Below the pieces are notes generated by a model. It was not told where the DNA came from, did no database searches, and saw only the letters and a program-made list of their open reading frames with translations. A stretch of 50,635 bases of DNA. Origin: Allomuricauda sp. (GTDB taxonomy: Bacteria; Bacteroidota; Bacteroidia; Flavobacteriales; Flavobacteriaceae). Of the stretch, positions 2,823-47,580 are shown piece by piece. The translations under genes and the position numbers were made by a program. Location of the stretch: NCBI GenBank assembly GCA_028284725.1, contig JANQRD010000232.1:1-50635 (forward strand), read 5' to 3'. Within the stretch, counting starts at the first letter, position 1. Every line of letters starts with the position of its first letter.

Positions 2823-2843
2823 ATTCTCGATTTGGTCTATTTT

Positions 2844-5601: not shown

Positions 5602-5645
5602 TGAAAAAAAACTAACTAACTCGAAAAATTAAAGGTTACTAAGGA

Positions 5646-7439: not shown

Positions 7440-7460
7440 CGTTCTTTTCTTTTTTTGTTA

Positions 7461-9011: not shown

Positions 9012-9021
9012 AGTTCTTTTT

Positions 9022-19808: not shown

Positions 19809-20855
19809 CTAATTGTCGAATAAAAAATTTGGTTGTCTGGTTGTTTCCCTTAAGATCAATTTATGTTTGATGGCTATTTTTTTTGGCACTAAATCACGAT
19901 CCTTGTTCAGTATTCGTAGCACCAATCTATCCAAAGCCCTTTCCCCTATTTTTTTGGCCCTTTGGCTTACCATAGTAAGTGATGGGTATATGTTTTGCGA
20001 CATTTCACCATTGGTAAAACCAATAATTGAAACTTCATTGGGAATCATATAACCTTTGCGCTGCAAATGGCCATGCGTCTTAATTGCCCCCAACTCATCA
20101 GTTGCAATTATTGCATCAATAGAATTTTCATTCAGCACCTTATTCAGTTTGTTTTCAAATCCGTCATATCCATTGAGTTCAATTGTGAAAGCTTTCAACC
20201 TGAATCCAGTACTTTTTTTAAGGCAACAAAATTCTTCTTTGAACCCGGCCATTCGGTACTGGCTAACGCTAGTTGCCTTTATCGCGGTCAAAAAAACAAT
20301 ATTCCTGCATCCTGTATCCACCAAATACCTAAGTGCAGACCTACCGGCCTCAAAATCATCAAGTACAACTTTATCACACTCAACATGGTCACAAACTCGG
20401 TCTACCATTACCATTGGCACATGCATATTCAACCTTGTCAAATGGTCATTTATACCAGCAGATTGTGTCTGTTTGGATAACGACATAATCACCCCATCTA
20501 CAGAGTGGTTCATAAAACTATCTACCAACTTCCTTTCCATATTCAGAGACTCGTTCGAAAAACAGATATAACTCCTCAAGCCCCTTTTCTTAGCCCTGGC
20601 TTCAATACCTTGCACCATTATCGAAAAAAAAGAACTGGATATATCTGGCACTATAATACCTATGGAGCCAGTATTCTTACTTTTGAGTGCTCTAGCTGTA
20701 CTATTGGGCTTATAACCTTGCGCAATGGCGATCCTCTTGATGCGCAAACGGGTATTCATGCTTATCTCTGGGCTGTTGTTGAGTGCCTTGGATACAGTTG
20801 ACACTGATACATTGGCAATGCATGCTATTTCTCTTATGGTGGTATTAAAACCCAT
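19809..20855 (-). CDS. LacI-family transcriptional regulator
   Basis: This 348-residue LacI/GalR-type regulator has an N-terminal HTH and hinge (about 5-60: TIREIACIANVSVSTVSKALNNSPEISMNTRLRIKRIAIAQGYKPNSTARALK). A periplasmic-binding-protein-like effector domain follows (GSIGIIVPDISSSFFSIMVQGIEARAKKRGL ... SLSKQ ... MVMVDRV ... DDFEAGRSALRYLVDTG ... IIATDELGAIKTHGHLQRKG). It sits between the four-sulfatase cluster and the FGE gene on the same strand. The probable role is repression of the sulfatase/FGE genes, relieved by a sugar released during degradation. No matching palindromic operator was found by eye in nearby gaps. The family call is firm; the regulon is inferred. Confidence 0.93.
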   Translation of the reverse strand: MGFNTTIREIACIANVSVSTVSKALNNSPEISMNTRLRIKRIAIAQGYKPNSTARALKSKNTGSIGIIVPDISSSFFSIMVQGIEARAKKRGLRSYICFSNESLNMERKLVDSFMNHSVDGVIMSLSKQTQSAGINDHLTRLNMHVPMVMVDRVCDHVECDKVVLDDFEAGRSALRYLVDTGCRNIVFLTAIKATSVSQYRMAGFKEEFCCLKKSTGFRLKAFTIELNGYDGFENKLNKVLNENSIDAIIATDELGAIKTHGHLQRKGYMIPNEVSIIGFTNGEMSQNIYPSLTMVSQRAKKIGERALDRLVLRILNKDRDLVPKKIAIKHKLILRETTRQPNFLFDN

Positions 20856-20970: not shown

Positions 20971-22401
20971 TCAATTTGAATTTTTACTCGCATGCAACAT
21001 TTGGTCAAGGCGCATCGATAGTTCATCCTTTATGTTTTTGTAATCAGTCTGTCTTGCAAGATTTCTCCATTCAAGGGAATCAGTTTTATGATCATATAGC
21101 TCTTCCGAGCCGTCTCTATACCTTATGTATCGCCATCTTTCTGTTCTAATGGAATTTTCTCCCTCTCCATTTTGTGTCAAAGAAGGGTAATCCCATTCAA
21201 CGTCTGAATCCTTGAGCAAGGGTAACAAGCTTCTACCATCATTCTTTGTGTTTTGAGGTAATCCTGCCAATTCCAGCAAAGTGGGGTATAGATCAATAAG
21301 ATTGACCGTTCTGCCTGTTCGTGATTTCGAAGTAGTGAGCCCTGGAGCTTTTATGATCAAAGGCACCCTACAGGCTTCTTCCCATAATGTGAATTTCTTA
21401 TATCGGAGCTTTTCACCTAGATGCCACCCATGATCACCCCATAAAACCACTATGGTATTCTCAAAATATGGACTTTTCTCAAGCGCGTCCAGAACAACGC
21501 CAACACAATGATCAGCATATGCAATATTTGCCAAATAGGCACGAACGGCCTCCCTTTCTTTCCCATACTTTTTAATTGTTTTATACTCAGAGGTAGCCTC
21601 TTTATAATTCCCAACGTCTTCAAGATCAGTCTGAAGTATTTTGGGCATTTCCAAGCTATCCGGAACAAAGAGGTCAAAAAACTCTTTGGGGACTCTCCAT
21701 TTCAAATGCGGCCTATAAATACCAAGACCTATAAAAAAAGGTTTATCATGTTCTTGAAATAAAAGGTCAGCGGCCCATTTTGCATTTAGATAGTCTTTCG
21801 TCTCTTCAATTGGAATATCCACCCCTGCCCAATCCATATTATTGGGCATTTCCCCTTTTGGTATGCCATTTTCCAGGAATCCCTCTTTTATATTTGGCTC
21901 ACCATAAGTGCCCGAAATGTTTTCCCATACATCCCAAGTGTGGTTGCCATTTAAATGCTCATGATACACTTTGCCCCTGGAAAAGGTTTTATACCCATAT
22001 TTTGAAAAGTACTGGGGCATCATCAGTGAGTTTTGTATCAACGTCACTTCAAACATTTCTTGGCCATTTTGGTATACCCCACTGGTCGAGGGTCTATAAC
22101 CCGACAGAATCGCAGCACGTGATGGGTTACAAGCCGGAGCCGCAGTATACGCTCTTTCAAATACAAGTCCTTGTGCAGCAAGCTTGTCCATATTTGGCGT
22201 ATAGGCTTGGGGGTGCCCTTCCAAAAACCCTGTCCAGTCATTCAAATCATCAACGGAAATAAACAGAATATTGGGTGTCTTCTTAACTTCTTTTTTTTCG
22301 GAAGCCTCGAAATCCTTGCATCCATTTAAAAAAATGGACAAACAAGCAAAAATGATTGAAAAAAGGCATCTTGACCATCTCGGTTTTTGTGTCTCGTTCA
22401 T
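20971..22401 (-). CDS. S1-family sulfatase lipoprotein, iduronate-2-sulfatase-like (CNPSR)
   Basis: This 476-residue sulfatase has lipobox SIFLNGCKDF, metal site NILFISVDDLNDW, formylglycine motif CNPSRAAILSG (Cys near 91), GKVYHEH and the second metal site VVLWGDHGWHLGEKLRYKKFTLWEE. This last form, together with VNLIDLYPTLLELAGLP, resembles iduronate-2-sulfatase-like S1_7 enzymes. It removes a sulfate ester from a released oligosaccharide, probably in the periplasm. It is the last of four consecutive sulfatase genes (12-bp gap upstream), followed by lacI after 115 bp. CxPSR is a canonical FGE recognition motif, and an FGE is encoded nearby. The exact sulfated position attacked cannot be read from sequence. 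Confidence 0.9.
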   Translation of the reverse strand: MNETQKPRWSRCLFSIIFACLSIFLNGCKDFEASEKKEVKKTPNILFISVDDLNDWTGFLEGHPQAYTPNMDKLAAQGLVFERAYTAAPACNPSRAAILSGYRPSTSGVYQNGQEMFEVTLIQNSLMMPQYFSKYGYKTFSRGKVYHEHLNGNHTWDVWENISGTYGEPNIKEGFLENGIPKGEMPNNMDWAGVDIPIEETKDYLNAKWAADLLFQEHDKPFFIGLGIYRPHLKWRVPKEFFDLFVPDSLEMPKILQTDLEDVGNYKEATSEYKTIKKYGKEREAVRAYLANIAYADHCVGVVLDALEKSPYFENTIVVLWGDHGWHLGEKLRYKKFTLWEEACRVPLIIKAPGLTTSKSRTGRTVNLIDLYPTLLELAGLPQNTKNDGRSLLPLLKDSDVEWDYPSLTQNGEGENSIRTERWRYIRYRDGSEELYDHKTDSLEWRNLARQTDYKNIKDELSMRLDQMLHASKNSN

Positions 22402-22413
22402 TGCCTATAATTT

Positions 22414-24066
22414 TCAGTTTTCTGTTTTGACTTTTTTAATGGAGACCTTTTTTAGGTTTTTTCCTTCATCATCCAAGTAGAAAGGTTCAAAATCGCTTTC
22501 CGAGACCCAACCTGCCTTAGGGTTTTTCCCGTTCATGTAGTCCTCATAAAAATTGCTCGACTTCACGAGCGGGTAGCTTTCATAGAGGTGGCCATAGCCT
22601 TGTATTCTGAGATCATTTTGGGCCTTCAAATGGTGATAAAGTTTCTCTTTTAGTTGCTGTTTAATACTTATAAGGTTTTCTTCCTGTCCCAGATTATTCA
22701 TGCAATACGGATCTTTCTTAATATTATAGAGTTCTTCAGAGGGTCTTTTGCCAAAATTCAACTTCCAAAATTTTTTGCTGATGCCTTTTCGTCTCATTTC
22801 GAGTATTTGGGTCTTAGTGGGACTGCCATCTGAGTTGAGATAGCCGGTCTCGGGATTCCCTGAAGGCCATCTGTCCACTTCAAAATTCCGGATGTAGAGC
22901 ATTGAATCTTTGTAAATACCCCGGATGGGATATCCTTGATCTTTAGGTCGACCCACATCGTGACGTTCTTTGCCAACAATTACATAATCGCGCCATTTTT
23001 CTATGGCACCCGATTTTTCTGACCTGATAATCCCCATAATGCTTTTGCCGGTCGCGGGATGCATTCCTGAAGTGTTCCATTCCACTCCCGCAGCTTCCAA
23101 AACCGTTGGGGCCAAGTCGATAAAACTTATGAAATCCTCAATTTTTCTACCCTTCACTTTCATCATCTCAGGCCATGAAATCGTCATGGGCACATGGTTA
23201 GCCTTTTCGTACTGGTCACCCTTTACCCTTGGGAACGGCATACCATGGTCCGAGGTGACGATAATCAATGTGTTTTGGAGCTCTCCTTTCTTTTTTAAGA
23301 GCTGTAAGACCTTCTGAATATGTTTGTCGAAAGATTCAATTTCAAAGGCATAATCGAGCATATCGTTTTGTACGACCTCATTTTCAGGCCAATATGGAGG
23401 GAAATCCTGAATCATATCGGTCGTTTTTTTGGCCAACCCTGCCCCGCTGCCATATTCATAACCTCTATGCGGTTCTAAAGAACCGATCCAAAAGCTCCAA
23501 GGTTTTCCTTTTGGCACACTATTTAAAAAGTCCTGAAAATTTCCACTGTAGTCATTGTCCGAAATATGGGGCGTAGGCGGCTCCAAGGTCTTTGCATCAA
23601 AAAGCGGCCCAAGCAATTGTCTTGGCTTTCCATCTGATGTCAGCGCTGCTCCGGGGGCATAACCTTTACCAGTATATCCTGTAGCATAACCATGCTCAGC
23701 CAATACTTCTTGGTAAGTTTTGAACTTTGGCGGAAAATAGATGACGTGGTTTGCGGCCGCATCGAGCTGCCATGGATTTCTTCCGGTAAGGATAGATGCC
23801 CTAGAAGGGGAGCATTTGGCATTAGGAGTATACGTATTGCTAAAAAGAATACCGTCTTTTGCAATCTTATCGAAACCAGGGGTGTTCACGTATGAACTTC
23901 CATAAACGCCCAAATCCAGTCCTGCATCATCAAAAACCAAAAAGAGAATGTTCGGTCGGGAATGTTGGGTCTCTTCTTGCCCCCAGATCATAATCGCGGA
24001 TAAAAAATAGAGCAAAGCCAAAAGCTTGGTGGTTTTAGGAAGATTATGATTTAATTTTAAGATCAT
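22414..24066 (-). CDS. S1-family sulfatase, heparan-N-sulfatase-like (CSPSR, possibly S1_8)
   Basis: This 550-residue exported sulfatase has a signal peptide ending AIMIWGQ, NILFLVFDDAGLDLGVYG, formylglycine motif NAKCSPSRASILTGRNPW (Cys near 85), TGKGYAPG in place of the GKWH seen in most of its neighbours, and VTSDHGMPFPRVKG. The GKG(Y/W)xPG form and overall layout resemble sulfamidase-like S1_8 proteins. Its ATG overlaps the stop of the upstream sulfatase by 4 bp (ATGA), so they are translationally coupled. A 12-bp gap follows. S1_8 members act on varied substrates, including algal glycans, so N-desulfation should not be assumed. Confidence 0.9.
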   Translation of the reverse strand: MILKLNHNLPKTTKLLALLYFLSAIMIWGQEETQHSRPNILFLVFDDAGLDLGVYGSSYVNTPGFDKIAKDGILFSNTYTPNAKCSPSRASILTGRNPWQLDAAANHVIYFPPKFKTYQEVLAEHGYATGYTGKGYAPGAALTSDGKPRQLLGPLFDAKTLEPPTPHISDNDYSGNFQDFLNSVPKGKPWSFWIGSLEPHRGYEYGSGAGLAKKTTDMIQDFPPYWPENEVVQNDMLDYAFEIESFDKHIQKVLQLLKKKGELQNTLIIVTSDHGMPFPRVKGDQYEKANHVPMTISWPEMMKVKGRKIEDFISFIDLAPTVLEAAGVEWNTSGMHPATGKSIMGIIRSEKSGAIEKWRDYVIVGKERHDVGRPKDQGYPIRGIYKDSMLYIRNFEVDRWPSGNPETGYLNSDGSPTKTQILEMRRKGISKKFWKLNFGKRPSEELYNIKKDPYCMNNLGQEENLISIKQQLKEKLYHHLKAQNDLRIQGYGHLYESYPLVKSSNFYEDYMNGKNPKAGWVSESDFEPFYLDDEGKNLKKVSIKKVKTEN

Positions 24067-25889
24067 TTCATCGTAGATTTTAATTGTCCTTTTCTTTTAT
24101 CATCGCCTTTTTTATAGGATTCCCAACCTCCTACACTTTCTGCCTTCGGCAACACATGGATCCTCTTAAATTCTTGGACCATCAAAGCTTTCATTTCCTC
24201 TACTTTCTCCGGATGCTCATGAGCAAGGTCATTGGTCTCTGAACGATCCTTCTTAATGTCGTACAATTCAAATTTTGCATCTTCTTTGAAACCATTCGGG
24301 GTAAAAACATTTTTGCGACTTACCAGTTTCCAGTCCCCGATACGAATCGCTGGGTATCCCCAGTGCTCAAAGGTCAACACACGGTCGGCACTAGCCTGGC
24401 CGTTTAGGATCTCAAAAAGACTTATCCCTTCCATAGGAGTAATAATGTTTCCGTTATACTTGCTGGGATATATGGCATTGGCCACGTCAACACATGTGGC
24501 CATGACATCGTTGAAATGGGCGTAGCGATTGTTGAAAATGGCACCTTCTTCTAGCTTTCCCGGCCAATGTGCAATGAACGGGGTACTTATGCCCGCCTCA
24601 TGTGTAAACATTTTGTAAAGTGAAAAAGGAGTGTTACTGGCATTCGCCCATCCCGAACCATAACTGAACAACGGACCGTCTGGACCACCCAGTCGCTCCA
24701 AGCTTTCACCTTTATGCAACACATTGGGATTCAATAAGGAATTACCATGCACACGGGCATTAAGGTCGGGATATTCAAAGCCAAAAGTATCCCATTCACC
24801 ACAGGCACCATTATCACTCAAAAAAAGGATCAATGTGTTTTCGAGTTCTCCATTGTCCTTTAAATATTGAATGATACGACCGATATTTTGGTCCATATTG
24901 TCGACCATTCCGGCATATACAGCCATTCTTTTGGCAAGGTCGGCCCGCCTGTCTTCATCCAAAAGATTCCACGCCGGGTTTTGTTTTCCATCACCCGGAA
25001 TACCTTTGCCAATGGCACTTTTTGGCCGGACCATCTGACTTCTTTCAGAAAGCTGAACGTCTTGTGTGACCACGCCCAATTCTTTCATCCTTTGAAATCG
25101 CCTGGCGCGTATGGTATCCCAACCCACACTGTAGGTGTCGATATATTTTTCAGAGTCTTTTGGCCAAGCCTGCACCGGAAAATGAACGGCCTGATATGAA
25201 ACGTACATGAACCAAGGTTGATCGGGGGTTTCCTGACCCATCTGCAAGAAATCTAAAGTGTAATCTGTGATGGCGTCGGTTGCAAAGAACTCACCTTCTT
25301 TGTATTTGCGTTCTTCTCTTCCTTTAGGAAAGCGTTGCATCCACTTAGGTTCAAAACTATCCACACCATAATCTTCGAGAAATCCATAGAATTCCTCAAA
25401 ACCCCTGTCAGTGGGTCCAGGATAGTTCACGTGCCACTTACCGGCACCAAACGTTCGGTACCCAGCCTCTTTCAACACTTCGGCAATAGTTACTGTGTTT
25501 GAAGTCAATTTGCCCCTATACCCCGGGAGATCCCTATCTTTGGCGGCCATTTCGCCCATTCCAGCCTGATGGGGATAGAGCCCCGTCAATAATGAAGCAC
25601 GGCTGGGGCAGCATCTAGCGGAATTGTACATTTGGGTAAATCTCACACCATTTGCAGCAAGATCATCAAGGTTCGGCGTATTGATTTCACCGCCATAGCA
25701 ACCCAAATCGGAATAGCCCAAATCATCGGCCAAGATGACTAGTATATTGGGCCTGTTTTTTATATCGGTGTTTTCTTGAACGTTGTCCATTAGTTTTTTA
25801 TCTCGACAACTGAACAAAGGCGACAAGATGAGAATAAGCAACAGAATTAGTTGTAATCGCTCTCTTTTATTGGTTATCGGTTTATTCAT
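24063..25889 (-). CDS. S1-family arylsulfatase-like lipoprotein (CCPSR)
   Basis: This 608-residue lipoprotein (lipobox SPLFSCRDKK) has ILADDLGYSDLGCYGGEINTPNLD, formylglycine motif ARCCPSRASLLTGLYPHQAGMG (first Cys, near 93, is the modified residue), GAGKWHVNYPGPTDRGFEEFYG and LFLSDNGACGEWDTFG. This is an AtsA/arylsulfatase-type S1 layout, probably S1_4. Its neighbour 25906..27564 is clearly related, sharing GYSDLGCYGGEINTP and GLYPHQ, so the two are paralogues. It overlaps the downstream sulfatase by 4 bp and is 16 bp from the upstream one. Exo-desulfation in the periplasm is likely. The sulfatase call is firm; the substrate is unknown. Confidence 0.91.
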   Translation of the reverse strand: MNKPITNKRERLQLILLLILILSPLFSCRDKKLMDNVQENTDIKNRPNILVILADDLGYSDLGCYGGEINTPNLDDLAANGVRFTQMYNSARCCPSRASLLTGLYPHQAGMGEMAAKDRDLPGYRGKLTSNTVTIAEVLKEAGYRTFGAGKWHVNYPGPTDRGFEEFYGFLEDYGVDSFEPKWMQRFPKGREERKYKEGEFFATDAITDYTLDFLQMGQETPDQPWFMYVSYQAVHFPVQAWPKDSEKYIDTYSVGWDTIRARRFQRMKELGVVTQDVQLSERSQMVRPKSAIGKGIPGDGKQNPAWNLLDEDRRADLAKRMAVYAGMVDNMDQNIGRIIQYLKDNGELENTLILFLSDNGACGEWDTFGFEYPDLNARVHGNSLLNPNVLHKGESLERLGGPDGPLFSYGSGWANASNTPFSLYKMFTHEAGISTPFIAHWPGKLEEGAIFNNRYAHFNDVMATCVDVANAIYPSKYNGNIITPMEGISLFEILNGQASADRVLTFEHWGYPAIRIGDWKLVSRKNVFTPNGFKEDAKFELYDIKKDRSETNDLAHEHPEKVEEMKALMVQEFKRIHVLPKAESVGGWESYKKGDDKRKGQLKSTMK

Positions 25890-25905
25890 ATTAAGTCAAT
25901 TGTTT

Positions 25906-27564
25906 TTATTCATCTTTCCACGGCCATGGCTTGGCGTTGGTCCTCACTGCCCATGATTCCCATTCGCTACGCAATTTCTCTGCGATATTGGGGTACTGGT
26001 CTATGATATTATTGGTTTCTGTTCGATCCAATTCCATATTGTAGAGTTCAAGCCGAGCATTATCTCCTCTGTCTGAGGTAACTATTTTGTATTTTCCTTT
26101 CCGAACGGCTTTTCGCCCCAAATGTTCCCAAAACAGTGTTCTTTCGATTTCAACATCTTCATTGAACATTGGTTTCAAGCTCACTCCTTCCATTGGGATA
26201 ATGGTTTGGCCATTAAACTGTTTGGGATATTCTGCCTTGGCAACATCGATACAAGTGGCCATTAGATCAATGACATGCGACACCTGTTCTCGTTTTTCGT
26301 TTTTAGTTTTTATGCCCTTTGGCCAGTGGACAATCAAAGGTGATGCAATACCTCCCTCATGTAGAAATCTTTTGTAATAACGAAAAGGAGCATTGGATGC
26401 AGAGGCCCAAGATTTGCCCACACTGAGATAGGTGGTATCTGCTCCCGGAATAATGCTTGGCAAATTGAATCTATGTATTTTCCTTCCATCGGGTGTAGCA
26501 GTAGGAATATTTTGTTTCCACCATCCGTGGTTTACTATGTCTTCGGCACTTGCTCCATTGTCGGAAAGAAAAAAAATCAATGTGTTGTCGAGTAGTTTTT
26601 GTTCCTTCAACATGGTGATTATGCGACCTATCCCTTGATCCATCCGATCCACCATGGCCGCATGAACCTGCATACGAGACGCCTCCCAAAGTTTATTTTC
26701 AGCTTGTGACCATTCAGGAACATCAGATTCCTTCTCAGAAAGTTTTGCTTCTTTATCGAGTAATTCTTCTTCAATCAAATTATGCAACCGATTCTGCCGA
26801 AGCCTATCCCAGCCTTTGTCATATGCAGTATCGTACTTTTTTATGTCTTCTTCCAAGGCATGTAATGGCCAGTGTGGTGCAGAGTAGGCCAAATACATGA
26901 AAAAAGGATTGGAAGCTTCTCTCCTATGTGTTTTCAACATGGCTATGACAGAATCTGTAACTGCATCCGTGTAATAAAAATCCTCCGAAGGGACTGGTAG
27001 GAGTCGGTTGTCTTTTGTAAGTGTTTTGGTATGATAATAGCCACTACCACCAAAACCATCTAAACTACCATAAAATTTGTCGAACCCTCTTTGCAACGGC
27101 CAATTGTGCTTCTGGTCGCCATCCATAAATGCGGTAAGGTGCCATTTGCCGGAGAGGTAGGTATGATACCCCGCCCCTTTGAGCACTTCTGCGATTGTAA
27201 CGCTTTGCCCATTTAAATCGCCCCGGTATCCTTTTAGCCCCAAATCTTTGTTCATGGCCCCGATTCCAGTTTGGTGTGGATACAGACCACTTATCAGGCT
27301 AGCCCGAGTAGGTGTGCACCGGGCATTGTTGTAGAATTGCGTGAATCTAATTCCGTTTTCGGCCAATAGATTAAGGTGCGGGGTATTGATCTCCCCACCA
27401 TAGCAACCAAGGTCGGAATAGCCCAAATCATCGGCCATAATAAGCAGTATGTTGGGCCTATCATCTTGTTTTGCCACCTCCTTTGATTCCTTTTTAGGGG
27501 TACAGCCAAGTACAATTGCCGCTCCTAAAAGAACCATTGTGTTTAATTTTAAACTACCTATCAT
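25906..27564 (-). CDS. S1-family arylsulfatase-like lipoprotein with CTPTR motif
   Basis: This 552-residue lipoprotein (AAIVLGCTPKK) has IMADDLGYSDLGCYGGEINTPHLN, ARCTPTRASLISGLYPHQTGIG (Cys near 83), LSGKWHLTAF and IFFLSDNGASAEDI. The usual Ser of CxPSR is Thr here, a tolerated change because Cys, Pro and Arg are kept. It is a paralogue of the adjacent downstream sulfatase and probably belongs to the same S1_4-type subfamily. It lies between the metallophosphoesterase gene (33 bp) and that paralogue (16 bp), well within the operon. Confidence 0.91.
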   Translation of the reverse strand: MIGSLKLNTMVLLGAAIVLGCTPKKESKEVAKQDDRPNILLIMADDLGYSDLGCYGGEINTPHLNLLAENGIRFTQFYNNARCTPTRASLISGLYPHQTGIGAMNKDLGLKGYRGDLNGQSVTIAEVLKGAGYHTYLSGKWHLTAFMDGDQKHNWPLQRGFDKFYGSLDGFGGSGYYHTKTLTKDNRLLPVPSEDFYYTDAVTDSVIAMLKTHRREASNPFFMYLAYSAPHWPLHALEEDIKKYDTAYDKGWDRLRQNRLHNLIEEELLDKEAKLSEKESDVPEWSQAENKLWEASRMQVHAAMVDRMDQGIGRIITMLKEQKLLDNTLIFFLSDNGASAEDIVNHGWWKQNIPTATPDGRKIHRFNLPSIIPGADTTYLSVGKSWASASNAPFRYYKRFLHEGGIASPLIVHWPKGIKTKNEKREQVSHVIDLMATCIDVAKAEYPKQFNGQTIIPMEGVSLKPMFNEDVEIERTLFWEHLGRKAVRKGKYKIVTSDRGDNARLELYNMELDRTETNNIIDQYPNIAEKLRSEWESWAVRTNAKPWPWKDE

Positions 27565-27597: not shown

Positions 27598-28698
27598 CTA
27601 CTCTTCGAGGAAACAGCCTGTCTTTTTCTTGTTCTCTATATTCGTTGTCTTGTCGATTATCATGGTTCCAATGGTTCTAAAACCCTTTTTCTTGGCCTCG
27701 GGAGTAAATTCTATACTCAATGATTTTCTGTCCACTACTTCTGGAATGACATCAATCTCCTTTAGCTCCAACTCCATTTTGTTCCCGGATACCCTGCCGA
27801 CCAAATAGTTTACCGTGGGGTTCCATCCAAAAAGACTTCCATGCGCGATTTGCTGTACGCTATTTTTCTCGGTGCAGGTTACGTCATGTACCTCTCCACA
27901 GAGATAGAGATCTACTTTATATTTGGACAAAGTCCGCCATAAGGGGGATTCCTCGGATTTTTCCAACATCATTCCGCTGGAGTGCATTCGGTTAACTGGA
28001 CCAAGTATTGGGGTGTGACCCATAACAATAATATGGTCTACCTCTCGGTTCTTTTCCAATACCTTATCCAGCCATTTTAATTGTTTGCCCGTGACCTGGG
28101 CGACAATATGACCCTCATCACCCTTACCAGGCTCGAACACATCGACAGCTATAAAAAGACTGTTTTTATGTATGAAGTAATATGCTAAGCCTTTCATATG
28201 ATCTGGACCATTCAAGGGCATTTGCATATATTGCCTGAACTGTTGTTCAAAGACAGGTACCAATTTTGCCTTTTCTTTTGGCCACGGATTGTCGCCAATC
28301 TCGTGATCGCCCACAGCCACATAGTATTTTAGGCCATGGGCCTCCATCCTTGCCTTCCATGCTGGATAAAAAATTGCGGCTTCTGCTTCGATACCATCTT
28401 TGGTGGGTTCCAATTTACTTGGCCATCTTCCATTGACTAAATCTCCAGCTACCAATACGAAATCGGGATTTTCAGCCTTTACAGCATTTAGAAAAAAGGC
28501 CAACCCTTCTTCAAAACCAGGATGCGGGTAGTATGTGTCTTTGTTCAGAAAATCGGGCACGCTTACAAATGTCCAAGTCTTCTGTTCGTTGACAACTTGT
28601 GATTGTGTTCTACAGGAACCGAACATCAATAACAGACAGCAGAGAAAAAAATCCCTGTAAATCTGATTTTTTATGCGATCATTAATCAATCTCCTCAT
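27598..28698 (-). CDS. Calcineurin-like metallophosphoesterase lipoprotein
   Basis: This 366-residue lipoprotein (LLMFGSCRTQ) shows most metallophosphoesterase motifs in order: VAGDLVNGRW (GDxxN), VAVGDHEIGDNPW (GDHE in place of GNHD/E), IIVMGHTPI (GH) and YLCGEVHDV (GxxH). Motif I is unusual: VSVPDFLNKDTYYP keeps an Asp but lacks the common DxH, a little like purple-acid-phosphatase relatives. It would hydrolyse a phosphomonoester or diester in the envelope using a two-metal site. Tight packing between a two-module glycosidase gene (22 bp) and sulfatases (33 bp) suggests it acts on the same glycan or on an intermediate carrying phosphate. No phosphate-bearing substrate can be named from sequence. 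Confidence 0.82.
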   Translation of the reverse strand: MRRLINDRIKNQIYRDFFLCCLLLMFGSCRTQSQVVNEQKTWTFVSVPDFLNKDTYYPHPGFEEGLAFFLNAVKAENPDFVLVAGDLVNGRWPSKLEPTKDGIEAEAAIFYPAWKARMEAHGLKYYVAVGDHEIGDNPWPKEKAKLVPVFEQQFRQYMQMPLNGPDHMKGLAYYFIHKNSLFIAVDVFEPGKGDEGHIVAQVTGKQLKWLDKVLEKNREVDHIIVMGHTPILGPVNRMHSSGMMLEKSEESPLWRTLSKYKVDLYLCGEVHDVTCTEKNSVQQIAHGSLFGWNPTVNYLVGRVSGNKMELELKEIDVIPEVVDRKSLSIEFTPEAKKKGFRTIGTMIIDKTTNIENKKKTGCFLEE

Positions 28699-28720: not shown

Positions 28721-31297
28721 TTAGTCATCAAAGCCCAAATCCTCTCCTTTATGAACGGCCAGACCTATTTGCTCCTTGCTCAGTTTACGCCCGTTGTACC
28801 AGAGCATCCACTGGTCGTTTTCTTCATCAAATATGACATAGGGTTTATAACAGGCATCCCGGTCCCATCCTTTTTGACTTGTTTTGATGATGGGGTTTTG
28901 AGGGTGTCGTTCCCAATCGGATATTCCGTCCCTTGAGCGCGCCACACCTATCTGTGCCCAATGCACATCATGGAAACCGATATAGAACATATAGTACCAG
29001 TCCCCATGCTTGACCACTTGGCATGCGGTGACTTTTTCATACTCCCAATCACTGTTTTTATCGGCTTTAAAAATGGGATTACCAGTATGTTTGTCCCATT
29101 TAAGACCATCTTTGCTTGAGGCATAACCAATGGCGTCGGGCTCATATTGCTCCCCGCCTGAATACCACATCTGATAAAGACCACTGGACTCATCCCATAT
29201 CACATGAGGGCACATGATGGCATTTTTTTCCCATGGGACATCGGGTTTGATAACCGGTTGTTCTTGGGCTCTTTCCCAGTCGATACCGTCCGCACTGGTG
29301 GCTAGACCAATTTCAGACCTACTTTCGGGTTTGGATATCTGCCCTGTGTACCACATCTTGTAGTCCCCATCGTCCTTGATCACCACGGGGCGGTTTACTC
29401 TGTCCTCCCATTTGGAACCCGTGTTCGGCCCCAAGGAAATTCTTGGGGTATCCCAATTCTTTCCAGCAGGACTTTCAACCAACGCGATGCTTTTTTCTGG
29501 TCGCCAAGAGAACCACATTCGGTATTTGTCATCTTCCTTTAACAGGGAAACATCAAAACAGGTTCCTAAATCACCTCCCAAGACAGGGTTACCTTCATAT
29601 TTTTCCCACCCCGCATTCGTTTCTTCATATGATGTAGTGACCGGAGGCAACTTGACCTCTATTTTGTCCAATGCCGTCTTGGCGGAGACTTTTTCCCCAT
29701 TTACAAAAATCATCAACCCCTTACCTAAATCATATCGCTCACCAGTCTTGTCATAGACCACAGCTATTTTTCTACCTCGATATAAAATATTGTCCATTCG
29801 AAAATAATCCCACTTACCTTCAGGGACTAAAGGATTGACTTCAAGTATTTCATCTGCCCGAGGTCTTAGACCAATCAAACCTGTTACCACAAGGTCTATA
29901 AAACCCGAGTGGTTATAATGGATGCCCCGATCCTTATCCTCCCTATCGTTCTCATACATGATTTTGCGGGAAATCCAATCTCCCGTATTGGGGTCTATGC
30001 TTTCACCTATCCAATTCACTTCTTTCCCATCATCAAACCCAAGTTTGTGGGCTGCTGCATAATCATGCAATACTTGTAGATAGTCCTGTTTGTCCACAGT
30101 GCTTTGTTCATAGCCATTCAGCAGATTGGCCATGGCAATCAGGGCCTGTGTGGTTGCAAAAGGCCATGAGGGGCCGTTCCAGAAGCACATATGTCCATTC
30201 TCATACATGAAATCAGGATGGCGTTGTTCCGCAGTGGTAAGGCCGTTCGAGGTATAGAAACCGTCTTCATCCATAAGCTCAGACCATGCCTTTTCGCCGG
30301 TGGAGTCCGGGATGTTGAAATACCACGGAATGTAGCCCGTCAACTCTTTTGCGTCTGACAATGTTGGACTGGCCGACTGATCTATGGAGGATTTAAAGAA
30401 CTGTGCATTTTCGTCCCATAAATGTTCTTGTATCAATAATTTGAGCTGTACGGCCTTGTCCAGGTATTTTTGTTGAATATTTTCCTCCCCGGCCAGTTCG
30501 GCAATCTTTGAAAGTGCCAATGCGTTGGCGTACATATAAGAATTCGTGGCCACCCTGAATCCTTTGTGTGCGAGGCCCGCCCTATAGACCTCTTTGTGCA
30601 AAAGGTTGCCTTTCTTAACTATGTCGGGCACTCCGCTGATACTGAATTCCATGCCCTCACGGGTATCGATGCTCCAGAACAGACCCTGTTCCGTCATGTG
30701 CTTTTTTTCAAAAGATTCATAGAAATCGACCATTTTGGGAAGCAGTGCAGTAAGAGACTCCTTATCCTTGGTCACCAAATATCTTTTGTACAATGCATCG
30801 ATGATCCAGTTGGAGTAGCGGTCCACCTGCCCTTTTTCAAACCAAAAATTGGAATAGTCGTCCAGGTAACTGGTTTCATGAAACCATCGAAACTCGTTGT
30901 ACTGGTGTCCTACGGGGCAGACAATGGTATTGGCCGGCCCGGACCAGGGCACATCTGGCAAAAATTCGGTCATCACAAAAGATTCCCTGGTCTTTTTGAT
31001 ATGCTTCCGCAATGTCCACCATCTAAAATAGTAGGTGTTCTCTATGGTACTGTCCGGACACTCGAATAAGGGAATCTGTCCTTTAAGCCAGGCCCAAGCC
31101 TTGTCGTTTGTCACATAGGATTTGGTCGCATACCTGTCTTCAGCATTGAACTTTTCAATGTAACCTTTGAACTTATCCGAATCCATCTGAGCGAACTCTA
31201 CTTTTTGCGTCTCTTTCTTTTCTTGCTCTTTACAACTGTGGATTTGTGCGAGTATCATCACCAGTAGAACAATACCTATTACTTTGTTTTTTTTCAT
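28721..31297 (-). CDS. Two-module glycosidase-like lipoprotein: six-hairpin toroid plus five-bladed propeller
   Basis: This 858-residue lipoprotein (MILAQIHSCKEQ) joins two folds. Residues about 60-560 look like an (alpha/alpha)6 six-hairpin glycosidase related to GH63 and mannosylglycerate-hydrolase-type enzymes (PNTIVCPVGHQYNEFRWFHETSYLDD, WNGPSWPFATTQALIAMANLL, GIHYNHSGFIDLVVTGLIGLRPR), ending with a small beta domain (RGRKIAVVYDKTGERYDLGKGLMIFVNGEKV). Residues about 570-855 are a GH43/GH32/GH130-like propeller with repeated blades (KYRMWFSWR, DYKMWYTGQ, LYQMWYSGG, WYYMFYIGFHD, QWMLWYNGR) and repeated NP.(I/V/L) turns. I cannot assign a family to either module. The gene lies in the middle of the sulfatase operon, so both modules probably cleave bonds exposed by desulfation. 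The fold calls are moderately sure; activity is unknown. Confidence 0.7.
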   Translation of the reverse strand: MKKNKVIGIVLLVMILAQIHSCKEQEKKETQKVEFAQMDSDKFKGYIEKFNAEDRYATKSYVTNDKAWAWLKGQIPLFECPDSTIENTYYFRWWTLRKHIKKTRESFVMTEFLPDVPWSGPANTIVCPVGHQYNEFRWFHETSYLDDYSNFWFEKGQVDRYSNWIIDALYKRYLVTKDKESLTALLPKMVDFYESFEKKHMTEQGLFWSIDTREGMEFSISGVPDIVKKGNLLHKEVYRAGLAHKGFRVATNSYMYANALALSKIAELAGEENIQQKYLDKAVQLKLLIQEHLWDENAQFFKSSIDQSASPTLSDAKELTGYIPWYFNIPDSTGEKAWSELMDEDGFYTSNGLTTAEQRHPDFMYENGHMCFWNGPSWPFATTQALIAMANLLNGYEQSTVDKQDYLQVLHDYAAAHKLGFDDGKEVNWIGESIDPNTGDWISRKIMYENDREDKDRGIHYNHSGFIDLVVTGLIGLRPRADEILEVNPLVPEGKWDYFRMDNILYRGRKIAVVYDKTGERYDLGKGLMIFVNGEKVSAKTALDKIEVKLPPVTTSYEETNAGWEKYEGNPVLGGDLGTCFDVSLLKEDDKYRMWFSWRPEKSIALVESPAGKNWDTPRISLGPNTGSKWEDRVNRPVVIKDDGDYKMWYTGQISKPESRSEIGLATSADGIDWERAQEQPVIKPDVPWEKNAIMCPHVIWDESSGLYQMWYSGGEQYEPDAIGYASSKDGLKWDKHTGNPIFKADKNSDWEYEKVTACQVVKHGDWYYMFYIGFHDVHWAQIGVARSRDGISDWERHPQNPIIKTSQKGWDRDACYKPYVIFDEENDQWMLWYNGRKLSKEQIGLAVHKGEDLGFDD

Positions 31298-31332: not shown

Positions 31333-32814
31333 TTATTTTATATTTCTTATCTGTTGGACTTTTATACTCAAGCTGTCGACCAGTGTTTTGTTTTCTTCAA
31401 GCTCCGCTACATTTATGGTTTCATCAGGGTCTTTTAAGTGATCATAAAGCATACTAGCCAGTGAGGTACCGTTTTCAGAAAACCACTCTGTATAGGCATA
31501 TCGGTCTGTTTTGATGAAATCGGAGTTTTTCCACCTTCCGTAGATTGCTTCTTTTCCCTTAGAATTGGGGTTGTCCAATAAATGTGCGAAGCTCTCGCCC
31601 TGTAGATGCTCCGGCTTCGGTAATTTGGCCAAATCCGTAAGGCTGGGATAGATGTCCACAAATTCCACAAGGCCCTGTATTTTATGTCCTCCTTTTCTGT
31701 CTGGAATGGATACAATCAGAGGAGCTTGCATGGCTACATTGAATGTTGAATGTTTGCACCACAGCCCATGTTCACCCAAACTCCAGCCATGATCTCCCCA
31801 TAAAACAATAATGGTATTGTTGGTCAAATTCAATCGATTAAGTTCATCTATGACCAGCCCTATTTGAGCATCAACATAACTAACACTGGCATAATAACCA
31901 TGAATCAGTGTACGGGCCATTTCATCGGAAACCCCTCCATCTTTGGGAATGTCATCGTAAGTACGAAGTTCCGAGAAACTGTGTCGAGCTACTTCAGGAC
32001 CATGGATTGGAAACTTTATAGAACGAGAAGACCCAATAGTGTTGGGGTCATGCATATCCCAATAGCCATTTGGTGCGTTGAAGGGAAGGTGGGGTCTGAT
32101 AAACCCAACTGCCATAAAAAATGGGGTGCCGTCCTGTGATAATAATTGAAGCTTTTCAATGGCCTTTTTGGCAATTTTTCCATCGTGGTAAGCACTGTCA
32201 ACTGCTTCTGCTTTTTCGTATGAAGGTTTTTTTTCTTTGTTTTTAGGCAATTGATAATTCAATCTTTGCCTACCAGGTGATCCCGGTTCAAAGGCCTGGG
32301 GGTTCCATGGAGGCTCGGTCCAGCTTTGCAGGGCATCATCCTGCCAGTGATGGACCACCTTCCCTAAGCTCAGTGTACTATATCCATTGTTCTTAAAAAG
32401 CTCAGGAAGTGTAATGATTCCAGGAGCATCTTCATTGATATAACTTTTATAAGTGAGAAAACGATTGGGAGTAGGTCGCAGACCGGTTAAAATACTGGCT
32501 CTCGATGCCCCACAGACGGGTACGTTGCAGTACGCTCTTTCGAATAAAAAACCTTTTTTGGCGAGTGCATCAATATTGGGGGAATGTACCTGTGATTTGC
32601 CGTAACAACCTAGTTCGGGACGCAAGTCGTCCACTGCAATAAAAAGCACATTGGGCCTTTGATTAGAGTGTTCTTTTAGCTTGGTTTTTGAAACGGTACA
32701 CCCAGCCAGGAACATTAAGGTCATAACGGTGCCATACTTTGCTAAAGGCATTTTTGGACCCATACAGAAATCCCAAAGTTCAAGCATTGTATGTTTCATA
32801 TTTCTTATTCCCAT
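31333..32814 (-). CDS. S1_7-type sulfatase lipoprotein with CGASR motif, copy 1
   Basis: This iduronate-2-sulfatase-like sulfatase is 493 residues from the ORF start. NVLFIAVDDLRPELGCYG and CNVPVCGASRASILTGLRPT (Cys near 101) mark the active site, with LGKVVHHW and IIVLWGDHGWSLGEHGLWCKHSTFNVAMQAPL. The formylglycine motif has Ala where most sulfatases have Pro. It is a close paralogue of 44235..45788. The first 20 or so residues look superfluous: starts at 32763 or 32751 give the lipoprotein signal (M)PLAKYGTVMTLMFLAGC, and the longer start overlaps the upstream GH36-like gene by 10 bp. A start at 32763 is my preference, but I keep the ORF coordinates. The gene lies between GH36 and the two-module glycosidase, so it may expose their substrates by desulfation. 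Confidence 0.9.
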   Translation of the reverse strand: MGIRNMKHTMLELWDFCMGPKMPLAKYGTVMTLMFLAGCTVSKTKLKEHSNQRPNVLFIAVDDLRPELGCYGKSQVHSPNIDALAKKGFLFERAYCNVPVCGASRASILTGLRPTPNRFLTYKSYINEDAPGIITLPELFKNNGYSTLSLGKVVHHWQDDALQSWTEPPWNPQAFEPGSPGRQRLNYQLPKNKEKKPSYEKAEAVDSAYHDGKIAKKAIEKLQLLSQDGTPFFMAVGFIRPHLPFNAPNGYWDMHDPNTIGSSRSIKFPIHGPEVARHSFSELRTYDDIPKDGGVSDEMARTLIHGYYASVSYVDAQIGLVIDELNRLNLTNNTIIVLWGDHGWSLGEHGLWCKHSTFNVAMQAPLIVSIPDRKGGHKIQGLVEFVDIYPSLTDLAKLPKPEHLQGESFAHLLDNPNSKGKEAIYGRWKNSDFIKTDRYAYTEWFSENGTSLASMLYDHLKDPDETINVAELEENKTLVDSLSIKVQQIRNIK

Positions 32815-34925
32815 TTGTATTTGTATAATCCGTAGCTATTTTTTTTCGGAAGTTCAAATTCAATGCTTCCATTTGTGCCTGTGGTGGTTTTGAAATCCTG
32901 GCCCTGGCCAAGAATGTTGGCAATAGTGATGTTTTTCCCTTTTGGGAGCCATGTGTCAATAGTGGCATTTTGGTTTTCAGTATTTTCCCTAAAAACCAGA
33001 AAGTACCCTGTATTGTTCTTGCCTATGGACTGGAAACCAGTCCATGATCTGCCCGACGGCTCTTCCCCAATGGGCAAGATGGTGCCCGAATGCATATCGT
33101 GCATGTGCTTTTTGTATTCCTTTACGGTTTGGGCAATCGAAAATGCCCCTTCAGGTAGGTTGCTCCCCTCGAACCAGGCCAGAGGCTGTCCCATCATGGT
33201 TATTGCGAATTGATAGTCAAAGGGAAGATTGTATGGTGCAAATGAATTTTTTTCACCATATTTTTCGATATTTCTCCACTTGTTCAAAAATTCAAGTTGA
33301 AATCCCTCGATAGGCACATATCGAGCAAGCATCCATGCATTCCTAAGGGTCCAATGTGGATAGTAGTTGACCCAATCGGTATACCTATTTTCCAAAAAAA
33401 CATTGCCATATTCCTGCATATAGTGATAACCTGCCCGTCTACCTGCGGTAGCATCCAAATTAAAGACCACCTTTCCCTTAGTCTCCTCCAGTACTTTATC
33501 AAAAAGCTTTCGTAAATTAATCTCAGCCTCTTTATCCGGCAGTTCGATGCCATCAATTTTGAAATTGGTAATATTGTAGTTCTTATGGATTGAAAGGAGT
33601 ATCTCCGCATCTTGTTCCCAGTTTTCATAACTATTGGCATCGCTTGGGTGAAACCAAAGCGCTAATCGAACGCCGAGTTTTTCCGCTTTTTTTAGAATAG
33701 GCTCCAGTCCATTCGGAAAACGTTCTGGGTGTGGTCGCCAACTCTCGGCATCCCATTGGCTCCACAATTTGCCAGTTGGATCCTTTGAATTCTTGGAAAG
33801 CCCTTTTTGCCAACCGTCATCAAGCTGAAAATGCGAAATCCCCATTTTTGCAGCAGCTTCAAGTTCCCTTAGCGCAAAGTCCTCGTTCAACTTTCCGTCT
33901 TGGCCACGATCGCCCCAAGTATTCATCATGATCATCTCATCGCGGTCAGGGTCAATTATCCGTAGGTTTTTTTGATAGGTCCTTAATGCGGTAAGTTTAG
34001 ACAACTCATCCGTTGTGGCGACACCTAAAACAACACTGTAGGCCCTAGTCCACTCTTCTTTTTTTATATCCGATGATGCCAGTCCCAATCCGATTGCTTG
34101 AATCTCGTTCGATTTGGAATAAAAATCGTATCCTGGATAGTGTAATTGCTTATCCGAAAGCGGGGCTTCCTTTACCATAAACAGTTGTTCGCCATTGCTT
34201 AAATCTTTTGCAAACAGCAGGTTTCCCTTTAACAACAATGGCCTGGTAAAAGCGAAAAAAGAAGTTTTATCCACAAGCGTATTGTTGATGTCGGTCACAT
34301 CCTTGAAATCAACCAATTCAAATTTCCAATGGCCATGATCAAAGGTTAACTTATCCAGAACGGGAAAAGGGCTTTCTTTTTCCAATTGTTTGAGCATCTT
34401 TTTTTCCACTCCAGACATTCCATCAATAGCAGTCTGGGCTGTAGTCCAATCTCCTTCAGCAATCCCCTTCACATAAAAATCACAAGCAATTGCCGGAGTA
34501 TACGGATAGATTCGAAACACTTTTTTTAAAAAGAGCTGGCCATATCCCACTGTCACCTCTGCCCGCAAATGTTCGGGAAAAATACTTGTGCTCTCTATCC
34601 ATGTTGTCTTAAAAGTCCCTCCACCAATTTGTTTTGATTCCGATGGAAAAGAGCTAGCTCGATTGTCCCCAATAAGATGCCATTTTTGGTCATTTTCCCT
34701 GTTTGTTATAAAGGTGGCTGCCAAATCACCATTGTTCCATAAAAAACCCCTTTCAATCTTGCTGTTGCCGATGCGAAGCGTATCATTTCTAAGCTCAGTA
34801 TAGCAATCCTTAAACTGGTACGACTGCCCATTGGTTTGACCATAGAAAAGAAAAGCCACCAGAAAACCGAAGAGTATTTGCCCGATGCAGGTATCTCCAT
34901 GTATTGACTTGGGAATTTTGCTCAT
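32805..34925 (-). CDS. GH36-like alpha-galactosidase, exported
   Basis: This 706-residue protein has a signal peptide ending FYGQTNGQ and a clan GH-D layout. The N-terminal beta-sandwich (about 35-320) is followed by the (beta/alpha)8 barrel (about 330-600) with MMNTWGDRG, ISHFQLDDGWQ, GVRLALWFHP and ITNFKIDGIELPDKEAE, and then a C-terminal beta domain. The Asp of NFKIDG (near residue 458) is the likely nucleophile. GH36 and GH27 enzymes cut alpha-galactosides, and related branches cut alpha-N-acetylgalactosaminides. It is separated by 1 bp from the aldose-1-epimerase gene, which would process released galactose, so an alpha-galactose-containing glycan is inferred. The family is quite divergent, so substrate specificity could differ. 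Confidence 0.8.
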   Translation of the reverse strand: MSKIPKSIHGDTCIGQILFGFLVAFLFYGQTNGQSYQFKDCYTELRNDTLRIGNSKIERGFLWNNGDLAATFITNRENDQKWHLIGDNRASSFPSESKQIGGGTFKTTWIESTSIFPEHLRAEVTVGYGQLFLKKVFRIYPYTPAIACDFYVKGIAEGDWTTAQTAIDGMSGVEKKMLKQLEKESPFPVLDKLTFDHGHWKFELVDFKDVTDINNTLVDKTSFFAFTRPLLLKGNLLFAKDLSNGEQLFMVKEAPLSDKQLHYPGYDFYSKSNEIQAIGLGLASSDIKKEEWTRAYSVVLGVATTDELSKLTALRTYQKNLRIIDPDRDEMIMMNTWGDRGQDGKLNEDFALRELEAAAKMGISHFQLDDGWQKGLSKNSKDPTGKLWSQWDAESWRPHPERFPNGLEPILKKAEKLGVRLALWFHPSDANSYENWEQDAEILLSIHKNYNITNFKIDGIELPDKEAEINLRKLFDKVLEETKGKVVFNLDATAGRRAGYHYMQEYGNVFLENRYTDWVNYYPHWTLRNAWMLARYVPIEGFQLEFLNKWRNIEKYGEKNSFAPYNLPFDYQFAITMMGQPLAWFEGSNLPEGAFSIAQTVKEYKKHMHDMHSGTILPIGEEPSGRSWTGFQSIGKNNTGYFLVFRENTENQNATIDTWLPKGKNITIANILGQGQDFKTTTGTNGSIEFELPKKNSYGLYKYKWE

Positions 34926-34926
34926 C

Positions 34927-36111
34927 TTATTGTTTTAGGATATCAAATTTGTAGACAGTGGTGTGGTGGTAGGTTTGGCCAGGATTTAACACAGGACTGG
35001 GAAAGTGCACCTTGTTTGGAGAGTCAGGAAAGAATTGGGACTCCATGCAAAAACCACCGTGTTTGACAATGGGCTTGCCATATTTGCCAATCTGTGTCCC
35101 ATCAAGAAAGTTTCCGGTATAGAATTGCAAGCCGGGTTTTGTAGTAAACACCTTTAGAATTCTTCCCGATGTTGGCTCAGTCACCTCTGCCGCAATCCCC
35201 AACTCGTTTCGCTCTAAATTGTTGAGTACAAAATTGTGGTCATAACCTCCCATGACACGGTCAATTTCTTTGCCTATGGATTTTGATGTCAAAAAATCCA
35301 TCGGAGTGCTTTTTACGGAAAGGATTTCACCTGTCGGAATGAGCGTTTCATCCACTGGCGTATAAAAATCGGCATTGATATACACCTCATGTCCCAAGAC
35401 ATGTTGCATTTCATTTGCATCATTCCCCACACTATTAAGATTGAAATAGGTGTGATTGGTAAGGTTGATGACAGTGGTTTTGTCTGTCCAGGCCTTATAT
35501 TCTATGATTAGTTCGTTCTTATCCGTTAGACTATAATCGACCTGTATGTCCACATTCCCTGGATAGGCAGACGAATCCTCTGAGCTATGGTAGGTAAGTC
35601 TAAGTTTTTCGTAAGGGTCTCCATCAATAATTTCTGAGAACCAAAGCACTTTATCAAAACTTTCTCTTGAACCACCATGCAAATGGTGAACACCATTGTT
35701 GACAGTTAGATTGTATTCACGACCATTCAAATCGAATTTTGCGTTACCTATTCTATTGGCATACCTTCCAACTAAAACACCGAAGTAAGAAGTGTTTTTG
35801 TTGAGCAATTCCTTAAAGGATCCATATCCGATGACAATGTCTCCGCTTTTTCCATGTTTATCCAGGGTATGGATGGAGACCACCGTGCCCCCATAGTCGG
35901 TTATCTTTACTATTGTTCCATTGGTGTTTTTTAAAGTAAAAAGAGAGACTTTTCTACCATCCGGCATGGTACCGAAATCCTCTCTTGAAATATTGGAAGG
36001 TTCACTTCCTTTATTACTATGCCCAGTCAATGTCATCATACATAGCATAATAGCTAAAAAAAGCCGTTGTCTTAATTCTTTATGTGCACTCTTAAATCCC
36101 ATGTCGATCAT
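34927..36111 (-). CDS. galM: Aldose 1-epimerase (galactose mutarotase), exported
   Basis: This 394-residue protein belongs to the GalM beta-sandwich family: TLKNTNGTIVKITDYGGTVVSI, NRIGNAKFDLNG, NNGVHHLHGG, VINLTNHTYFNLN, MGGYDHNFVL and the C-terminal ESQFFPDSPNKVHFPSPVLNPGQTYHHTTVYKF. The two His of GVHHLHGG and NHTYFN and the Glu of CMESQF fit the known catalytic set. A signal peptide (RQRLFLAIMLCMMTLTGHS) shows it is exported, as in other Bacteroidota PULs. It interconverts alpha- and beta-anomers of free hexoses, probably galactose from the adjacent GH36-like enzyme. The ORF start or the Met at residue 4 could be used; the difference is trivial. It lies 19 bp downstream of a sulfatase gene. 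Confidence 0.92.
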   Translation of the reverse strand: MIDMGFKSAHKELRQRLFLAIMLCMMTLTGHSNKGSEPSNISREDFGTMPDGRKVSLFTLKNTNGTIVKITDYGGTVVSIHTLDKHGKSGDIVIGYGSFKELLNKNTSYFGVLVGRYANRIGNAKFDLNGREYNLTVNNGVHHLHGGSRESFDKVLWFSEIIDGDPYEKLRLTYHSSEDSSAYPGNVDIQVDYSLTDKNELIIEYKAWTDKTTVINLTNHTYFNLNSVGNDANEMQHVLGHEVYINADFYTPVDETLIPTGEILSVKSTPMDFLTSKSIGKEIDRVMGGYDHNFVLNNLERNELGIAAEVTEPTSGRILKVFTTKPGLQFYTGNFLDGTQIGKYGKPIVKHGGFCMESQFFPDSPNKVHFPSPVLNPGQTYHHTTVYKFDILKQ

Positions 36112-36130: not shown

Positions 36131-37585
36131 TCAATATCTATCTATTTCATCACCATCGCGTGGTGCAATTTGATCTTCATACGGCTTTATACCACTAATG
36201 TGATTTTCTGCAAGTTGTCTTAACTCTTTAACCTTTTCAGGATATTTATCCGCCACGTTGTACTGTTCCGAGGGGTCCTCACCCAGGTGAAACAACAATG
36301 GAGGGGTATGTTCCATGTTGTAATATTTTCGAAACCCAGCAATTCCCCTGGTCTTAAAATGAAGTTTAAAATTCCCCTTACGTACCGCAAAAAGCTGTCT
36401 GCCTACGTAGAAGAACATTTCTTTCCGACCACTTTCATTTTTCTCAAACAACGTTGGGGTCAAATCATATCCATCCATCTCCCTATCATCTGGAAAAGAG
36501 GCACCGGTAATCTTGCATATGGTAGGGAATACATCCAAGGTGGCCGCCATATCCCTAATAATCCCATTTTTCAGTTTACCTTTCCACCTAAAAATGGCAG
36601 GAACCCGCATGCTTCCTTCCCAAGTCTCACCTTTGCTTCCCCTAAATTGCCCAGCGGATCCACCATGTTGATCCAACATTTTCCAAGGTCCATTGTCTGA
36701 AGTAAAAATCACCAGTGTGTTTTCTTCCAAACCTTCTGCCTTTAATGCCTGCATTACTTGTCCTAAACTCCAATCAATTTCTTCGATGACATCACCATAA
36801 AGACCTCTCTCGCTTTTTCCCTCGAAAGATTGGGAAGCAAACAACGGTACATGGGGCATACTGTGCGATAGAAAGAGGAAAAAGGGTGACCTCTTGTTCT
36901 CTTCAATAAATTTTATGGCTTGCTGGGTAAACCTTTTGGTTGCCGTATGTTGTTCGAATGGACGTTCGATGATTTCCTCACCTTCCATCAGCGGAACATT
37001 GTAATATGAAGTTTTCGGATTCTGATAAAGTACCTTTGTCATCTTTTGGGTCTTGTTCATATCATTACTGTAGGGAATGCCATAGTAGTAGTCAAAACCA
37101 TTACCTGTAGGCAGGTATTTTGTGTCCTTGTGCCCCAGATGCCATTTACCAATACAGGCGGTTGCGTATCCAACATCTTTTAAAGATTCGGCAATCGTAA
37201 TTTCATCTGCAGGCAGCCCCCTCACGGAAGATGACCAAAAAACACGCCTTTTATCGCTGCACATACCGTTGCGTATCGGTAAACGACCTGTCAATAGTGC
37301 AGCTCTACTGGGAGTGCAGACACTGGCTGCCACATAAAAATTCGTCCATCTTTGACCCTCATGGGCCAATTGATCTATATTCGGTGTGTTAATGGTTGGA
37401 TGACCATAGACTGATGCATCACCATAGCCCATGTCATCTGCCAAAATAAGGACAATATTGGGCTTTTTCCTTGCTTGTGGGTTTTGTGCTGAGGAAATAG
37501 TGCCAAGCATCATCATCATCAAAAGGAGTAAAACCTTCACTTTTTCAATTTTGTATTCACTGAATGTGGACATTGTTATGGCCAT
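36131..37585 (-). CDS. S1-family arylsulfatase-A/GALNS-like sulfatase (CTPSR)
   Basis: This 484-residue exported sulfatase has a signal peptide ending MLGTISSAQ, IVLILADDMGYGDASVYGHP, ASVCTPSRAALLTGRLPIRNGMC (Cys near 90), CIGKWHLGHKDTKYLPTGNGFDYYYGIPYSNDM, LVIFTSDNGPW and GSKGETWEGSMRVPAIF. The YGIPYSNDM and GETWEGSMRVP segments are typical of arylsulfatase A and N-acetylgalactosamine-6-sulfatase-like S1 members. It is the first gene after susD1, beyond a 221-bp gap that holds a hairpin, and is followed 19 bp later by galM. It probably removes a galactose-type sulfate, but that reading rests on context. Confidence 0.92.
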   Translation of the reverse strand: MAITMSTFSEYKIEKVKVLLLLMMMMLGTISSAQNPQARKKPNIVLILADDMGYGDASVYGHPTINTPNIDQLAHEGQRWTNFYVAASVCTPSRAALLTGRLPIRNGMCSDKRRVFWSSSVRGLPADEITIAESLKDVGYATACIGKWHLGHKDTKYLPTGNGFDYYYGIPYSNDMNKTQKMTKVLYQNPKTSYYNVPLMEGEEIIERPFEQHTATKRFTQQAIKFIEENKRSPFFLFLSHSMPHVPLFASQSFEGKSERGLYGDVIEEIDWSLGQVMQALKAEGLEENTLVIFTSDNGPWKMLDQHGGSAGQFRGSKGETWEGSMRVPAIFRWKGKLKNGIIRDMAATLDVFPTICKITGASFPDDREMDGYDLTPTLFEKNESGRKEMFFYVGRQLFAVRKGNFKLHFKTRGIAGFRKYYNMEHTPPLLFHLGEDPSEQYNVADKYPEKVKELRQLAENHISGIKPYEDQIAPRDGDEIDRY

Positions 37586-39312: not shown

Positions 39313-39333
39313 AATTTCAATTTTTTAACTTGT

Positions 39334-47562: not shown

Positions 47563-47580
47563 ATCTATAATTTTATTTTT

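Follow-up and report, generated by a model that had tools for sequence, protein, structure and literature searches.

The gene at positions 28721-31297 of the window (the whole stretch of 50,635 nucleotides that was analysed) encodes a lipoprotein in which a GH142 domain is fused to a five-bladed β-propeller. This fusion is a new architecture with a candidate new GH family in its propeller, and not a new kind of system. The most likely account, to which we give about an even chance, is that the protein is a two-module, bifunctional exo-glycosidase acting on desulfated oligosaccharides. The fusion and its halves are located as follows:

28721..31297 (-): GH142-propeller fusion lipoprotein, 858 aa (Pfam, phmmer, Foldseek)
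29663..31192 (-): GH142 half, aa 36-545, (α/α)6 barrel and C-terminal β-sandwich
28724..29632 (-): five-bladed β-propeller half, aa 556-858, without a recognised CAZy family

The open reading frame is intact (ATG start, zero internal stops), and Cys22, the likely lipid anchor, is retained in most relatives. Pfam matches were obtained for MGH1-like_GH (239 bits, aa 123-464), Glyco_hydro_65C (aa 481-537) and Glyco_hydro_43 (PF04616; 44.1 bits, cut-off 32.2, aa 570-839), the last being a broad model. The AlphaFold model of the full-length protein was of moderate quality (pLDDT 70), at which the module interface is unreadable. When it was searched with Foldseek, 5mqr (GH142) ranked first, followed by 6m5a (GH121) and then by propellers of GH130, GH137 and GH43. 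The initial annotation had described a single lipoprotein composed of a six-hairpin module and a GH43/GH130-like propeller, which was borne out by Pfam, AlphaFold and Foldseek. An artificial fusion made during assembly was ruled out because the assemblies of two other species carry the same fusion at 74-75% identity. Overall, the fusion was present in 3 of 73 Flagellimonas genomes (carriers include F. flava DSM 22638 and Flagellimonas sp. 389), always within a sulfatase/galactose locus, and in no further genome among 301 of the family.

GH142 half and its lineage

The N half of the fusion plainly belongs to GH142. In a phmmer search against solved structures, aa 41-541 matched 5mqr_A (BT1020) with 384 bits, and the full model matched 5mqr in Foldseek with an E value of 2e-37 and 38% identity. 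The phmmer score against GH121 HypBA2 was 39 bits. The earlier view that neither module could be placed in a known family therefore does not hold for this half, but it does for the propeller, which stayed unplaced by both sequence and catalytic residues.

GH142 is a small family. The only characterised activity that we found for it in the literature is β-L-arabinofuranosidase, with the pectin RG-II as substrate, and its catalytic residues are stated as not identified (PMC7263609). The BT1020 residues near the bound β-L-Araf are Glu694, Tyr702, Gly805, Trp943 and His1019 (PMC7263609). Four of these five sugar contacts are retained in the fusion as E111, G215, W373 and H463 (in four BT1020 contacts, the chain and the paper are off by one in their numbering). 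The fifth, Tyr, is W118 in the fusion, and the same swap occurs in the other GH142 lineage that is not of RG-II type. Residues E111, E217, E432 and D211 were invariant across 19 relatives, and W373 and H463 were also invariant. The motifs suggest that E432 corresponds to the general base of GH63/GH78/GH37 and that E217, which lies within the A' region, corresponds to the acid of GH63.

The three fusions formed a separate clade (support 100/100) in a tree built from 32 GH142 domains. Another clade comprised the BT1020-type GH143-GH142 proteins together with single GH142s of RG-II loci, and a second lineage was also distinct from the fusion clade. By this sequence tree, the fusion GH142 is a deep lineage of its own, outside the RG-II clade that holds the characterised activity. 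Because the fusion GH142s cluster apart from that clade, the RG-II substrate is not simply transferable to them. When 19.5 kb was read around five single GH142 genes of the RG-II-type clade, a stand-alone GH143 was nearby in all five. In marine Flavobacteriaceae (loci L070, L071, L072, L073 and L076), GH143 and GH142 are separate adjoining genes, and BT1020 is the fused form found in Bacteroides-type genomes.

Fold, family and constraint of the propeller

AlphaFold and Foldseek, which the initial annotation had proposed as checks, gave GH142 5mqr as the top match of the full-length protein and, for the propeller alone (aa 556-858), a five-bladed model (pLDDT 93.5, pTM 0.92) with GH137 BT0996 as its first match (E 5.7e-15), followed by GH43 and GH130 structures. 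Sequence profiles showed a weak preference for GH130 phosphorylases. In its modelled fold, the propeller is nearest to GH137, GH130 and GH43, yet it is unplaced in any known family. Under a GH137 profile made from nine member proteins it scored 44-48 bits, compared with 607-690 bits for GH137 members. This is the level of general propellers (30-58 bits), so the propeller is not GH137 by sequence, and membership was rejected. Profile-profile comparison with GH137 gave an end-to-end match (98.8%). GH143 was rejected at an hhalign probability of 12% over 55 residues only. GH130 was rejected because the E-D-P-R motif with the catalytic Asp is missing, its position reading V-N-R-P, and no PF04041 (GH130) match was obtained in the propeller at E values up to 0.01. 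The Asp-Asp-Glu triad of GH43 was likewise rejected, with two of its three acids missing: the triad sites fall on the inner strands of blades 1 to 3, and only the first still carries its acid (D582), the others being R636 and C696. Stretches of the propeller include GGEQYEPDAIGYA and IGFHDVHWAQIGVAR.

The best match to the propeller among 395 genomes of the class had ~35% identity at 107 bits, and shorter pieces reached 41%. No propeller of the fusion type was found at E 1e-25 among 396 genomes of the phylum, none above 71 bits in plasmids, and none in viral contigs. Stand-alone proteins of 410-450 aa from other Bacteroidota (L036, L037, L039, L040 and similar) have many MWYxG blades and a weak GH130 match, and form an uncharacterised group; several of them carry type IX sorting tails.

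Comparison of the three fusion species gave pS values of 0.76-0.86, at which synonymous sites are saturated, and pN values of 0.09-0.18. Nine of the ten pocket-facing inner-strand (strand-start) and B-C-loop stretches of the propeller are nearly invariant, and its identity between species (77-84%) is above that of the GH142 half (72-77%). The near-invariance of the pocket-facing stretches means that the propeller is not a relic. Thus, neither of the outcomes that the initial annotation had set against its proposal, characterised families with known substrates for both modules or a relic module, was found: the GH142 substrate is probably not transferable, and the propeller is strongly constrained.

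GH137 also suggests where the propeller acids may lie. Structures 5mt2 and 5mui of BT0996 show a Glu/Gln difference at residue 240, which identifies E240 as the mutated GH137 residue. The profile alignment puts E240 at propeller D721, at 22% identity and across repeats in which the register can slip, and one GH137-propeller alignment was shifted by one blade. From a weak alignment, propeller E658 is near the loop position of E159, which we take to be the second GH137 acid. Position 658 is acidic in all three fusion species (E, E and D), and most of the surrounding loop is variable. E658 and D721 may plausibly form an acid pair of the GH137 kind.

The main rival explanation, which is possible if rather doubtful, is that the GH142 half alone is catalytic and that the propeller has lost catalysis and serves as a binding module, holding a sulfated or anionic chain by its conserved basic residues. 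Such residues (H698, H776, H779, R837, K838 and K818) do lie on the loop face, and the presence of R636 and C696 where GH43 has its blade-2 and blade-3 acids points in the same direction. Moreover, a GH142 of the same genus (L031 553-3102 in G308, adjoining a GH97-like gene) has F5/8-like domains, judged by eye, fused at the same C-terminal place, so an addition at the C terminus may be a binding module. However, GH137 is itself a five-bladed propeller that works without the GH43 triad, and the conserved acids D582, E716, E719, D721 and D777 on the same loop face suggest more than binding. A catalytic propeller is the reading that we retain below.

Gene locus, substrate and proposed function

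The fusion gene sits tightly between sulfatase and phosphoesterase genes in a minus-strand locus (18382-50538), which also contains:

18382..19539 (-): FGE-sulfatase (formylglycine-generating enzyme-like) protein
19809..20855 (-): LacI-type regulator, operon end
20971..27564 (-): four further sulfatases (20971, 22414, 24063, 25906)
27598..28698 (-): calcineurin-like phosphoesterase, next operon gene after the fusion
31333..32814 (-): sulfatase carrying a C-x-A-S-R motif, preceding the fusion gene
32805..34925 (-): distant GH36/GH27 (α-galactosidase-like) glycosidase
34927..36111 (-): aldose (galactose) 1-epimerase
36131..37585 (-): sulfatase
37807..42702 (-): one SusD/SusC pair
44235..45788 (-): seventh sulfatase
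46057..50538 (-): second SusD/SusC pair

Each of the seven sulfatases retains the motif C-x-[PA]-[ST]-R. No lyase or recognisable endo-hydrolase was found in the locus, in agreement with the earlier description of an operon lacking both. All three fusion loci have in common SusC/D, the epimerase, the GH36-like gene and sulfatases. A 77% identical phosphoesterase gene also follows the fusion in sister locus L004, and galK and galT follow the sister loci, one of which additionally has a symporter. The locus is probably for the use of a sulfated, galactose-rich algal glycan. Its two SusC/SusD pairs are closely related, suggesting a duplicated uptake system. A separate locus in the window (546-12081) resembles one for β-1,2-glucan utilisation: it encodes GH3, SusC/D, a Laminin_G_3 lipoprotein and two proteins with PF10091, which is glucoamylase-like, as in endo-β-1,2-glucanases.

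Neither L-arabinose isomerase (AraA) nor GH127/GH146 gave a match in the three fusion genomes (two 99% complete, the window's own 89%), and therefore the β-L-arabinose release of BT1020 is not simply transferable to the fusion. Galactokinase was present in all five genomes compared. Flagellimonas G345 has both AraA and GH127/GH146, and in its locus L068 (3-13042) GH137, two GH127, an epimerase, GH2, GH142 and a sodium symporter stand side by side as a ready β-L-arabinofuranoside cluster. AraA and GH127 were also undetected in G323, whose second-lineage GH142 lies near two sulfatases. Judged by the isomerase route and the gene company, a galactose-rich substrate for the fusion has moderate support.

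Enzymes may also release sugars that their host cell leaves unused. The GH142 half could remove β-L-arabinofuranose merely as a decoration, like BT1020 on RG-II, with no growth on this sugar. This explanation concerns the substrate and is compatible with either view of the propeller. We regard it as rather unlikely, even though the active-site residues are retained and β-L-arabinofuranosidase is the sole characterised GH142 activity that we found (PMC7263609), because the fusions fall outside the clade of RG-II type, their locus is without RG-II enzymes, and sugar release is normally paired with use of that sugar. Less probable still is that the propeller belongs to GH137 after strong divergence, with both halves acting as β-L-arabinofuranosidases on the same β-L-Araf-bearing glycan: GH137 is the top Foldseek match, E240 aligns with D721, and GH137, GH127 and GH142 lie side by side in G345, but the propeller scores no better than general propellers under a profile that gives members >600 bits, and AraA and GH127/GH146 are undetected in the fusion genomes.

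In the bifunctional exo-glycosidase that we favour, two glycosidase modules would be held at the membrane by the lipid anchor. The GH142 half would cleave off a terminal sugar of furanosyl type, either L-arabinofuranosyl or a galactan residue of like shape, via E111, E217 and E432. The propeller would be a second, unclassified five-bladed glycosidase, its pocket probably using acids in the strand B-C loops and not the GH43 triad; these would be E658 (blade 2) and D721 (blade 3), as thought for E159/E240 of GH137. Once the seven sulfatases had acted, the two modules would trim adjacent residues of oligosaccharides derived from a sulfated marine polysaccharide rich in galactose. Two sequential cuts on desulfated oligosaccharides, as the initial annotation had proposed, are plausible by analogy, and BT0996 (GH137+GH2) is a precedent for two catalytic modules in one protein (PMC9843283); BT1020 likewise combines GH143 with GH142.

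More tentatively, the propeller may found a new GH family with non-GH43 acids and, joined to a GH142 whose specificity has shifted (e.g., to a galactofuranose-like residue), form a bifunctional enzyme acting on a sulfated marine galactan. If so, the galactan targeted has a structure not yet matched to enzymes. As a candidate for a new GH family, the propeller is clean and expressible, and together with GH142 it could offer access to a sulfated algal galactan whose locus has no visible lyase or endo-enzyme. The separate GH142 lineage in sulfatase loci without detectable AraA suggests that GH142 specificity is wider than recorded.

Comparison with known systems

HypBA2 (GH121 β-L-arabinobiosidase, 6m5a) has a barrel and C-domain related to the N half of the fusion and was the second full-length Foldseek match; its low phmmer score makes it a distant relative from a different family. 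GH130 β-1,2-mannoside phosphorylases (Teth514_1788, 9fj8; 7fip) are the best sequence-level PDB matches of the propeller and similar in fold, whereas the propeller is without their E-D-P-R signature, catalytic Asp and PF04041 match. BT0996 (GH137-GH2, 5mt2/5mui; RG-II β-L-arabinofuranosidase/β-glucuronidase) is the best fold match of the propeller and also a fusion of two catalysts, and its E240 aligns, if weakly, with an acid of the propeller (D721). However, the propellers share ~20% identity, that of the fusion lies outside the GH137 profile, and the partner domain in BT0996 is GH2. BT1020 (GH143-GH142, 5mqr; RG-II degradation in Bacteroides thetaiotaomicron) resembles the fusion in combining a GH142, homologous over its full length, with a propeller in one secreted protein. 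In BT1020 the propeller is N-terminal and belongs to GH143, unrelated at the family level, whereas the order is reversed in the fusion; the GH142 lineages also differ, and the fusion is encoded in a sulfatase/galactose locus and BT1020 in an RG-II locus.
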